Positions 12,864 to 18,125 of a stretch of 38,353 bases of DNA are shown piece after piece (the first letter of the stretch is position 1; each line of letters opens with the position of its first letter). The notes beneath the pieces were generated by a model, which saw only the letters and a program-made list of their open reading frames with translations, was not told where the DNA came from and did not search any database. This stretch comes from Candidatus Aminicenantota bacterium (GTDB lineage Bacteria; Acidobacteriota; Aminicenantia; S016-38). The translations under genes and the position numbers were made by a program. The stretch spans positions 1-38,353 of the forward strand of contig JALXBI010000105.1 of NCBI GenBank assembly GCA_026991555.1, given 5' to 3'.

Positions 12864-13139
12864 CTAAAAGAATCGTATCTCAAACCAGTTTAAACCCTTC
12901 TGCGGGGAAACATCAAATTTCTCAACCTTCTCTACCCTGGCTAAAGCAGGGCCCCTTTCCAGGTCCCTTTCCAGTTCCCGAATGGCTTCGTATTCTCCCT
13001 GGGCGAAAACCTCCACCCTCCCGTCGGGGAGGTTGCGAACCCATCCTGCCAGCCCGTAAAGGTCAGCCTTCCTTTTTACGAAATAGCGAAAACCAACACC
13101 CTGAACTATTCCTGAAATTAAATATCTCCTGGCAACCAT
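12864..13139 (-). CDS. acyP: acylphosphatase
   Basis: A 91-residue acylphosphatase, normal family length. GIVQGVGFRYF supplies the phosphate loop with catalytic R18, and N36 in WVRNLPDG completes the active site. It hydrolyses acyl phosphates such as 1,3-bisphosphoglycerate or acetyl phosphate in the cytosol. The ATG lies 8 bases after the 3' end of tRNA-Pro(CGG), separated by TTTTTCCC with no Shine-Dalgarno site and no good -10 box. Co-transcription with the tRNA followed by tRNA 3' processing is therefore the simplest explanation for its expression. Confidence 0.93.
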   Translation of the reverse strand: MVARRYLISGIVQGVGFRYFVKRKADLYGLAGWVRNLPDGRVEVFAQGEYEAIRELERDLERGPALARVEKVEKFDVSPQKGLNWFEIRFF

Positions 13140-13147
13140 GGGAAAAA

Positions 13148-13222
13148 TCGGGGCGAGTGGATTCGAACCACCGGCCTCCTGCTCCCGAAGCAGGCGCTCT
13201 AACCAGGCTGAGCCACGCCCCG
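13148..13222 (-). tRNA. tRNA-Pro (anticodon CGG)
   Basis: Reading the minus strand, a 7-base-pair acceptor CGGGGCG/CGCCCCG, a D arm, an anticodon arm CCTGC-TTCGGGA-GCAGG (anticodon CGG), and a TTCGAAT T-loop are present. The 3' CCA is not encoded: TTT follows the discriminator A. The gene lies between yqaA and the acylphosphatase gene, 8 bases before the latter's start. A TAAAAT box lies about 10 bases upstream. Confidence 0.95.
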
Positions 13223-13230
13223 ATTCCTTA

Positions 13231-13821
13231 TTATTTTATCGCAAATTTTACCACTAAAAAACCGCCCACAAGGAGAATTCCGAAGGCAAGGGCGAGCCAG
13301 TTGAAGTATCGGTCTATGAATAACCTGGCCCTTTCCCCGAAGGCGTAAACTAAGGCCGATACTAAAAAGAAGCGGGCGCTTCTGCTGAGGGCCGAGGCTA
13401 TTATGAAGACTATAAAATTTATCCGGCATGCTCCAGCGGCTATGGTAAAAAGTTTGTAGGGAAGAGGGGTAAAGCCAGCCACGCTGACCGCTAAGGCATT
13501 GTACTGGTTATAGAGGGCGCTTACATACTGGTATTTTTCCATTAAGCCATAGGCCTTTAGTATGGGAATGCCCACGGAATTCATAAGGAAAAGCCCTATT
13601 AGATAGCCGAAGGCCCCTCCTATAATTGACCCTATGGAAGATATGGCCGCATAGTAAAAGGACTTCCTGGGCTTGGAAAGTCCCAGGGGAATGAGAAGAA
13701 CATCCGGGGGAACCGGAAAGAAGCTGCTTTCGGAGAAGGCGAGAAGAAAAAGAGCCGGGACGGAGTAGGGAGAATAGGCCCACCCCAGGACCCAATCATA
13801 GAGTTTTCTAAGAAACCTCAC
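13231..13821 (-). CDS. YqaA/VTT-domain membrane protein
   Basis: A 196-residue polytopic protein with 4-5 hydrophobic segments and the VTT (SNARE-associated/DedA) signature: FLLAFSESSFFPVPPDVLLIPLGL near residues 25-48, then GGAFGYLIG and AGFTPLPYKLFTIAAGACR. The last is typical of the YqaA branch. DedA-family proteins act in lipid scrambling or polyprenyl-phosphate recycling in the inner membrane; the YqaA branch is less studied. Start is GTG at 13821, 14 bases inside the surE 3' end, so coupling with surE is expected. It is followed by tRNA-Pro(CGG). Confidence 0.9.
   Translation of the reverse strand: MRFLRKLYDWVLGWAYSPYSVPALFLLAFSESSFFPVPPDVLLIPLGLSKPRKSFYYAAISSIGSIIGGAFGYLIGLFLMNSVGIPILKAYGLMEKYQYVSALYNQYNALAVSVAGFTPLPYKLFTIAAGACRINFIVFIIASALSRSARFFLVSALVYAFGERARLFIDRYFNWLALAFGILLVGGFLVVKFAIK
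13233..13238 (-). promoter_or_regulatory. possible -10 of tRNA-Pro(CGG)
   Basis: TAAAAT on the minus strand predicts a start about 4 bases before the tRNA. It overlaps the yqaA stop codon. The -35 region is only a T-run, so transcription from surE/yqaA may be the main source. Confidence 0.35.
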
Positions 13822-14551
13822 CCTTAAGGGCCTCCCTCAAGATTTCCAGGTGTCCGTAACTGGTCATGTCCGAATGTATTGGGGTTATGGAAATGTATCC
13901 CTCCCTTACCGCTTTTATGTCCGTGCCGTCCTCCGGGGAGGAGACCGGGCTTCCTATTCCTATCCAGTAGTATTTTTCCCCCCTGGGGTCTTCCCTGGTT
14001 ATTATCTCTGGCCTGTATTTTTTGCTTCCCATTCTCGTTACCTTAATTCCCTTCCAGGGAGGGGGAGGAAAATTGACATTTATGGTAATGTCCGTAAACC
14101 TTTGCCTGAGCAGGATTTCTATTAACCAGGCTGCCCTTTCCCCTGCCTCCTCCAGCCCTTCCAGGTTCTTTCCTGTAAAGGAAAAGGCTACCGAGGGAAT
14201 TCTAAAATGGGTGGCAAGGATGGCCGCCCCTACGGTTCCCGAGTAAATAACATCGTCGCCCAGATTGGGACCATGGTTTATTCCCGAGACCACCAGGTCA
14301 GGATACTTCTCCTCCAATACTCCTAAAGCTAAGTATATGCAATCGTTGGGGGTGCCGTCGGTAATGTAAAAATCCTTCCCGATTTCCCTCATTCTGAGTG
14401 GTCTATGAAGGGTAAGGGCCTTGCTTACCGCTGAGCGTTCCTTATCGGGAGCCACCACAAGGACGCTATGGCCCCTTTCCCGCAGCACTCTCCTGAGGAT
14501 GTTTATTCCAGCGGACAGGTATCCGTCATCATTGGTGAGGAGAATTCTCAT
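13808..14551 (-). CDS. surE: 5'-nucleotidase SurE
   Basis: A 247-residue SurE with the family N-terminus MRILLTNDDGY (N7, D8, D9 metal ligands), SGINHGPNLGDDVIYSGTVGAA in the middle, and FPPPPWKGIKVT. SurE is a cytosolic metal-dependent survival protein that dephosphorylates nucleoside 5'- and 3'-monophosphates. I place the start at the ATG at 14551; a longer in-frame reading to 14608 would translate the tRNA-Pro gene and has no ribosome site. The ATG lies 12 bases after the tRNA CCA end in a T-rich spacer without Shine-Dalgarno. It overlaps yqaA by 14 bases downstream. Confidence 0.94.
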   Translation of the reverse strand: MRILLTNDDGYLSAGINILRRVLRERGHSVLVVAPDKERSAVSKALTLHRPLRMREIGKDFYITDGTPNDCIYLALGVLEEKYPDLVVSGINHGPNLGDDVIYSGTVGAAILATHFRIPSVAFSFTGKNLEGLEEAGERAAWLIEILLRQRFTDITINVNFPPPPWKGIKVTRMGSKKYRPEIITREDPRGEKYYWIGIGSPVSSPEDGTDIKAVREGYISITPIHSDMTSYGHLEILREALKGEVS

Positions 14552-17346: not shown

Positions 17347-17352
17347 TATATT
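17324..17352 (+). promoter_or_regulatory. promoter of tRNA-Ser
   Basis: TTTACT (17324-17329), 17 bases, then TATATT (17347-17352) preceded by TGA, so also an extended -10 (TGnTATATT). The predicted start lies about 5 bases before the mature tRNA end. The -10 sits immediately after the hisS stop codon. Confidence 0.55.
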
Positions 17353-17363
17353 TATAAAAAGAG

Positions 17364-17456
17364 GGAGAGGTGCTGGAGTGGTTTAACAGGGTCGCCTGCT
17401 AAGCGATTGTCCCGCCTAAAGCGGGACCGTGGGTTCGAATCCCACCCTCTCCGCCA
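17364..17456 (+). tRNA. tRNA-Ser (anticodon GCU)
   Basis: A class II tRNA with acceptor GGAGAGG/CCTCTCC, anticodon arm GTCGC-CTGCTAA-GCGAT (anticodon GCT), a long variable arm (GTCCCGC/GCGGGAC stem), T-loop GTTCGAAT, discriminator G and an encoded CCA. Total 93 bases with CCA. It lies between hisS and a winged-helix gene whose start is 12 bases after the CCA. Confidence 0.96.
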
Positions 17457-17468
17457 TTTTTGTTAAAA

Positions 17469-18125
17469 ATGAAGTTAGCCAACCTTGTGTTTTCAACCCA
17501 TGCAAAAATCGATGTGCTTAGAACCATTTATTTTGCCGGGGATGGTATATCCGGGAGAAAAATAAGCCTCCTCGGGGAGATAAACCCCAGGTCGTGCCAG
17601 CTGGCCCTTCAGGAATTAGAGGCTCTGAACATAATTTATAAAAATGGAAACAGGAGGAAGCATAGCTTTTTCCTTAACAGGGAACATCCCCTTTACAGGG
17701 AACTGCTGAAACCTATTTTTGAGGGGGAAAGGAGGCTTTACCGGGAGATGGCGGGTAAAATAAAGGAAGGACTATCACCTCAGCAAAACGATTCCTTGGT
17801 CTCCATATGGAGTTTTTCGAGCAAGGAGAAAAACGGGGGGGGAGTTGGGATTATCCTGCTTTTCGGTATGGACATTCCCCCCAGGGAGCTCGCCTCAGTG
17901 GAGAGAAAAGCTGGCGAGGAAATAAAGGGACTTATGAACACCCCGGTGAAGGTCAAGGCCTTTACCCTTAAGGATATAAAGGAGGATGCAGGATTTAGAG
18001 ATTTCATTAGGGGAGCGGTAATCCGGGTCCTTTTCGGGGAAAGGCCCGAGGATATAGCCAGGGACCTGGGGATAACCAGAGGCCCTCTTCATTATTTCCT
18101 TTCCAAAAGCCTTTATGTTTCCTGA
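17469..18125 (+). CDS. winged-helix protein with degenerate nucleotidyltransferase-like domain
   Basis: About 218 residues. Residues 5-70 (STHAKIDVLRTIYF, SLLGEINPRSCQLALQELEALNIIYK) form a winged-helix domain of the ArsR/MarR kind, ending in RKHSFFLNREHPLYRELL. Residues about 105-175 recall the minimal nucleotidyltransferase fold often fused to such domains, but the expected GS-x-DxD catalytic motif is not visible (FSSKEKNGGGVGIILLFG stands there), so it is probably not catalytic. A third segment ends in FGERPEDIARDLGITRGPLHYFL, another HTH-like pattern. The ATG at 17469 is chosen; a TTG at 17460 is possible. There is no Shine-Dalgarno site, and the gene lies 12 bases after tRNA-Ser. Targets are unknown. 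Confidence 0.7.
   Translation: MKLANLVFSTHAKIDVLRTIYFAGDGISGRKISLLGEINPRSCQLALQELEALNIIYKNGNRRKHSFFLNREHPLYRELLKPIFEGERRLYREMAGKIKEGLSPQQNDSLVSIWSFSSKEKNGGGVGIILLFGMDIPPRELASVERKAGEEIKGLMNTPVKVKAFTLKDIKEDAGFRDFIRGAVIRVLFGERPEDIARDLGITRGPLHYFLSKSLYVS

Follow-up and report, generated by a model that had tools for sequence, protein, structure and literature searches.

How does a gene obtain a translatable messenger RNA (mRNA) when its start codon lies only a few nucleotides (nt) behind a transfer RNA (tRNA) gene on the same strand, with neither a Shine-Dalgarno (SD) sequence nor a promoter of its own in between? The question is raised by three junctions on contig JALXBI010000105.1 (C105) of a Candidatus Aminicenantota bacterium; the 38,353 nt of this contig are the whole stretch analysed here, hereafter the window. 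The genome to which it belongs (G000) comprises 1.90 Mb in 125 contigs and is 99% complete. Comparison with a congener (G002) and a member of a sister genus (G004) reveals that such junctions are frequent and conserved, and we consider it likely that tRNA and mRNA are made as one transcript, from which tRNA 3' processing would release an mRNA with a short leader devoid of an SD sequence.

All three tRNAs are called by both ARAGORN and Rfam (RF00005), and distances to start codons are counted from tRNA base 73, an encoded CCA, where present, being included in the spacer. The first, tRNA-Pro(CGG) at 13148..13222 (−) (66 bits), has a C1-G72 pair and A73 without an encoded CCA; the 8-nt spacer TTTTTCCC (13140..13147 (−)), which holds no SD sequence, separates it from the ATG of acyP (12864..13139 (−)), the first gene behind it, encoding an acylphosphatase of 91 residues (Pfam PF00708, E=2e-25). 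The second, tRNA-Pro(GGG) at 14567..14640 (−) (57 bits), has its CCA encoded at 14564-14566 and is followed by the 15-nt spacer CCATTTTTTATTTTT (14552..14566 (−)), that is, CCA plus TTTTTTATTTTT, a form common to genomes G001-G004. Behind it lies surE (13808..14551 (−); Pfam PF01975), a 5'/3'-nucleotidase gene of 247 codons whose product begins MRILLTNDDG; alignments to the NCBIfam surE models begin at residue 1 of this protein. The third, tRNA-Ser(GCT) at 17364..17453 (+) (57 bits), encodes its CCA at 17454-17456, and the 15-nt spacer CCATTTTTGTTAAAA (17454..17468 (+)), composed of CCA and TTTTTGTTAAAA, leads to the ATG of a 218-codon gene at 17469..18125 (+), which an earlier, sequence-only reading of this DNA had termed winged-helix and for which we obtained no Pfam or NCBIfam match. 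The same gene follows tRNA-Ser in G002 and G004, at 14 and 11 nt, and the orthologous proteins are 76 and 53% identical from residue 1. The sequence-only reading had placed the three tRNAs 8-12 bases before the start codons, in agreement with our counts (8, 12 and 12 nt with an encoded CCA set aside, and 8, 15 and 15 nt when base 73 is the reference), and had described the spacers as T-rich and devoid of GGAGG and of a -10 box suited to a leaderless start; we likewise see no SD sequence and no -10 box at -12/-13 in them.

Promoter-like sequence, also pointed out in that reading, lies ahead of each of the three tRNAs. A -10-like TAAAAT (13233..13238 (−)) is found 10 nt ahead of base 1 of tRNA-Pro(CGG); for tRNA-Pro(GGG), TAAGAT (14652..14657 (−)) is spaced 17 nt from TTGACT at 14675-14680; and for tRNA-Ser(GCT), TATATT (17347..17352 (+)) is spaced 17 nt from TTTACT at 17324-17329, which overlaps the end of hisS (promoter spacings counted by hand). 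As hisS ends 17 nt ahead of tRNA-Ser, read-through from hisS may also contribute. Across the genome, most tRNA units have their best -10-like hexamer starting 12-18 nt ahead of base 1 of the tRNA, often with TTGAC at -35 spacing.

A genome-wide count, for which the earlier reading had asked and in which a lack of excess would have spoken against its proposal, showed a strong excess of close start codons. We read 39 full-length tRNAs of G000 with their flanks, of which 30 were unit-terminal and could be judged, using gene calls from a simple codon-usage script. The next gene lies on the same strand in 23 of these 30, and in 18 of 30 it starts within 21 nt, compared with 0.22 of 30 expected at random strand positions. 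The corresponding counts are 20/33 in G002 and 19/33 in G004; the resulting 57 short spacers are mostly orthologous and, sharing ancestry, are not independent, although their lengths and sequences have diverged. They range from 7 to 21 nt, mostly 8-15 nt. As a control we used 438 kb of G000 (L239-L258 and the window; 432 called genes), in which 37 of 143 non-overlapping same-strand pairs of coding sequences (CDSs) are separated by 7-21 nt, versus 18 of 23 tRNA-CDS pairs (p=2e-6). The hisS loci of diverse named bacteria (0.97 Mb) hold only four tRNAs, too few to serve as a control. The two kinds of junction also differ in their ribosome-binding sites: an SD core, scored as GGAG, GAGG or AGGA at -17 to -3, is present in 24 of the 37 CDS-CDS gaps of 7-21 nt and in none of the 18 tRNA-CDS spacers of G000 (p=1.5e-6), nor in any of the 20 of G002, and in a single one of the 19 of G004. 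In two other families of the class, short junctions number 8/26 (f2, two of them with an SD) and 0/31 (f4), and in f24 they number 1/23; their high density is peculiar to the family of G000, G002 and G004.

According to family searches, the genes at the 18 junctions of G000 comprise ftsY, signal peptidase I (lepB), a yitT-type gene, tilS, a nagA-like gene, thrS, secE, acyP, folE2, galU, prs, a gene for a DnaJ/TPR protein, trigger factor, an S49 peptidase (sppA type), surE and a gene for a zinc-ribbon coiled-coil protein; the other two were assigned to no family. Many of these are housekeeping genes, so that efficient translation would be required of the short U-rich leader, should it be the true 5' end.

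Conservation in relatives, which the earlier reading had named as a check, bears out both the arrangement and the start codons. tRNA-Pro(CGG) lies 7-11 nt before acyP in all six examined genomes of the same genus or family, across acyP identities from 96% down to 57%. The pair recurs with a somewhat longer gap in four f2 genomes (acyP about 45-50% identical), was not seen in the other families of the class that we examined, and reappears elsewhere in the phylum in G054, G079 and G091; in G079, moreover, a gene resembling thrS comes after tRNA-Val(GAC). For 18 of the 18 short pairs in G002 and 17 of 18 in G004, a related gene stands behind the same tRNA. The linkage is directional, in that downstream neighbours are kept in G004 more often than upstream ones (17/18 versus 12/24, p=0.002), with 7/16 versus 2/22 in genome G037. 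Nearly all proteins of the short pairs align from residue 1 at the start codon, whereas the spacers differ in length and sequence, and this alignment across genera rules out chance or false start codons as the origin of the short group. The exceptions are AspGTC-lepB, where the called GTG lies at 21 nt and relatives suggest a TTG at about 12 nt, and LeuCAA-sppA, which differs at the N-terminus in G004. Several of the tRNA-gene linkages are old: the genes that follow two Met tRNAs, Leu(TAG) and others are the same in G037, although the spacers there measure 29-54 nt where the start can be called.

What, then, starts translation of these genes? The spacers of G000 and G002 contain 65 and 63% T, and the U-rich leader could represent a specific recruitment site for the 30S subunit, for example through ribosomal protein S1, in which case initiation would be of the ordinary 30S type without an SD rather than leaderless-like. 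We regard this as unlikely, although it fares best among the alternatives: in G004 only 51% of the spacer bases are T, yet nothing there points to a gain of SD sequences, and leaders of 8 nt leave little room for such a site. Somewhat less probable is that the T-run is a leaky terminator of the tRNA gene, the gene behind it being expressed by read-through and starting close by as it follows the T-run. T-rich flanks do occur after some tRNAs whose next gene is on the opposite strand, such as TTTTTTATTTTTT after ArgCCG; several short spacers, however, lack a T-run (CTAAGTGAT, CTTTAGCC and CTGAAAATGTG), and the loss to termination would be costly before secE, thrS and tilS. Leaky termination can also coexist with co-transcription followed by tRNA processing.

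Plain compaction, under which the tRNA would play no particular part and the genes behind it would be normal members of operons, is a still weaker candidate. It would suit a genome that is 94% coding with a median same-strand CDS gap of -4 (both in the 438 kb sample), as well as the old linkages with longer spacers in G037. Yet the CDS-CDS junctions of this compact genome retain the SD (24/37), and 33 of their 70 gaps within 0-21 nt measure 0-6 nt, whereas the tRNA-CDS spacers of G000 have no SD and the shortest of all 57 is 7 nt, counted from base 73 or CCA. This lower bound may provide room for a nuclease or for the ribosome. Compaction alone, besides, leaves the way in which these mRNAs are started unexplained. 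Finally, a promoter inside the tRNA gene that yields a truly leaderless mRNA is very improbable, since, for all that leaderless promoters are common in G000 and such boxes do occur at longer spacers (GluTTC-Rrf2 gene, ValCAC-response regulator, ssrA-amidase), the -10 element would have to lie within the T-arm or acceptor stem and TAnnnT occupies the gene-promoter position (-14..-11) in only 4 of the 57 short spacers (1/18, 1/20 and 2/19 in G000, G002 and G004). As spacers of 7-21 nt are too short to hold a gene promoter, transcription would have to start at the tRNA promoter or enter from an upstream operon, and we infer that co-transcription is what remains for most sites.

Genes located farther behind tRNAs on the same strand present a different picture, as most of them carry another start signal (4/5 in G000). 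Two have an SD, namely tuf at 59 nt and an MscS-type gene at 29 nt after LeuGAG, and two have a TATAAT-like box at -12, namely an Rrf2-type gene after GluTTC and a response regulator after ValCAC; the fifth lies 169 nt behind SerGGA. The ValCAC case is the fourth tRNA of the window: tRNA-Val(CAC) (34421..34492 (−), called by ARAGORN and RF00005) precedes a sigma-54 response regulator (33054..34379 (−); Pfam PF00158 and PF00072) by 41 nt (34379-34420 (−)). TAATAT at 34386..34391 (−) occupies position -12 of its start, which is the position of the genome-wide leaderless peak, and is probably the regulator's own leaderless promoter, in contrast to the short junctions. In G002 the same distance is 13 nt (G002:C5:279852), and this gene thus appears to have switched between a tRNA-led and a promoter-led short-leader mRNA. 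Just upstream of tRNA-Val(CAC), at 34527-38246 (−), is a predicted protein of 1239 residues with immunoglobulin-like domains and SBBP/delta-60 beta-propeller repeats. The old Thr-Tyr-Gly-Thr tRNA cluster before tuf is kept in G000 (L037, G000:C98:1-4500, 187-517 (−)), where the 59-nt spacer bears GGAGG, and this SD-bearing unit is an internal contrast to the short junctions. The gene for transfer-messenger RNA, ssrA (L317, G000:C47:13800-16300, 1554-1904 (−)), ends 8 nt before an ATG that follows a T-run. In G002 the gene does not start at that ATG, which is rejected as a false positive; the amidase gene after ssrA in G002 has its own TGTTAAAAT promoter of leaderless type, and TATGTTAAAAT at the ssrA locus looks like the extended -10 of a leaderless amidase gene.

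The translational background of the genome is mixed. Upstream profiles in G000 fall into two populations, one with a TA[AT]AAT peak at -12/-13, seen at divergent genes and a sign of leaderless transcription, and one with GGAGG-type sequences at -12 to -9. The earlier view that the genome already uses leaderless initiation therefore stands in so far as leaderless starts are in use, with the amendment that SD starts coexist with them. The 16S ribosomal RNA tail of G004 reads GGATCACCTCCTTT, with a normal anti-SD, CACCTCC; a 16S gene was looked for in G000 and not found. Some divergent gene pairs in the 438 kb of G000 are only 14-15 nt apart, so that their promoters must overlap the opposite gene.

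We therefore return to co-transcription and tRNA 3' processing, the reading proposed from the window alone, which gains support from the genome-wide excess and from the conserved arrangement and start codons. Transcription would begin at a sigma-70-type promoter close ahead of the tRNA and yield an RNA with the tRNA as its 5' part and the mRNA as its 3' part; the tRNA would fold within the nascent RNA; an endonucleolytic cut at its 3' end would leave the mRNA with a U-rich leader of 7-21 nt lacking an SD; and the ribosomes of this lineage would initiate on such mRNAs without an SD, in a leaderless-like or some other manner. Gene order and flanking sequence suggest that tRNA and gene are co-transcribed, that the transcript is cut and that the product is translated. 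Several observations weigh against this scheme. Leaders of 8-15 nt exceed true leaderless length, and T-runs are also present after some tRNAs without a same-strand gene behind them, so that the function of the T-run may lie with the tRNA and not with the mRNA. The cutting enzyme is a further difficulty. Thirteen of the 18 short-junction tRNAs, like most tRNAs of G000, G002 and G004, have no encoded CCA, which makes them the usual substrate of RNase Z, and no protein in five genomes scores above the curated RNase Z cut-off, an absence that is itself unproved as 5 of 14 control genomes miss it too. The two best partial matches are, as read from their sequences, other proteins of the metallo-beta-lactamase fold. 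By analogy to PMC3985628, RNase E was considered as an enzyme that might cut within the U-rich spacer, and rejected, as no member of the RNase E/G family (PF10150) was found in G000, G002 or G004. Propionibacterium acnes, in which no obvious tRNase Z is present, serves as a precedent for the processing of tRNA 3' ends when no such enzyme is apparent (PMC3848588).

Three known systems resemble the arrangement in part. Bacterial tRNA-mRNA operons are exemplified by thrU-tyrU-glyT-thrT-tufB. As in such tufB-type operons, tRNA and mRNA would share one transcript, with no promoter between them in spacers of 7-21 nt without a -10 box; unlike them, the downstream genes have no SD (0/18 in G000). Known tRNA-mRNA operons, among which secG-leuU may be counted to judge from a title cited in PMC3985628, are isolated cases, whereas here the arrangement takes in about 60% of the unit-terminal tRNAs, and its spacers leave no room for an SD. 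The arrangement thus extends the tufB-type operon, which is itself present in G000 in its SD-bearing form. The leaderless mRNAs of actinobacteria (Mycobacterium, PMC4633059; P. acnes, PMC3848588) share with the proposed transcripts an SD-independent start at or near the mRNA 5' end. Their 5' end arises by transcription initiation, whereas here it would come from tRNA processing, and the -10 element about 12 nt before the start that marks leaderless genes is found at few of the short tRNA spacers (1/18, 1/20 and 2/19).

The third is the mitochondrial system, described for animals by the tRNA punctuation model (Ojala, Montoya and Attardi 1981; see PMC8601606), in which tRNAs likewise directly adjoin mRNAs and tRNA excision, as it would here, creates the mRNA end, and in which the mRNAs likewise lack an SD and have little or no leader. 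Mitochondrial mRNA leaders are almost absent (0 to about 3 nt), whereas those considered here would be 7-21 nt long; most of the tRNAs, moreover, have promoter-like sequence of their own, and the genome is a free-standing bacterial one, 1.9 Mb in size and with SD starts as well. In mitochondria a common transcript is cut by RNase P and RNase Z; in all five genomes examined here, the RNase Z model stays below its cut-off. Mitochondrial tRNAs flank the mRNAs on both sides; here the 5' side of the mRNA is marked, the one side that we measured. Because of the longer leaders, and because only the 5' side was examined, we do not class the junctions as a member of the mitochondrial type. In the open-access literature, of which our coverage was incomplete, no bacterial genome came to light in which most tRNA units were reported to be arranged in this way.

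If the proposed route is correct, tRNA punctuation, usually deemed a peculiarity of mitochondria, would also have arisen in a compact bacterial genome beside leaderless translation, which would offer a testable route for the evolution of the mitochondrial system. It would also constitute a second way to short-leader mRNAs without a dedicated promoter, and gene finders that rely on SD sequences or -10 boxes would have to allow for a tRNA in place of both. More tentatively, and with rather less confidence than in co-transcription and cleavage as such, tRNA maturation could serve this family as a genome-wide device for making SD-less mRNA 5' ends, those of housekeeping genes of secretion and translation among them; FtsY, SecE, TilS, ThrRS, Prs and trigger factor would then be synthesized in dependence on tRNA processing and in step with tRNA output. 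The supply of tRNA would thereby be directly linked to the expression of housekeeping genes.

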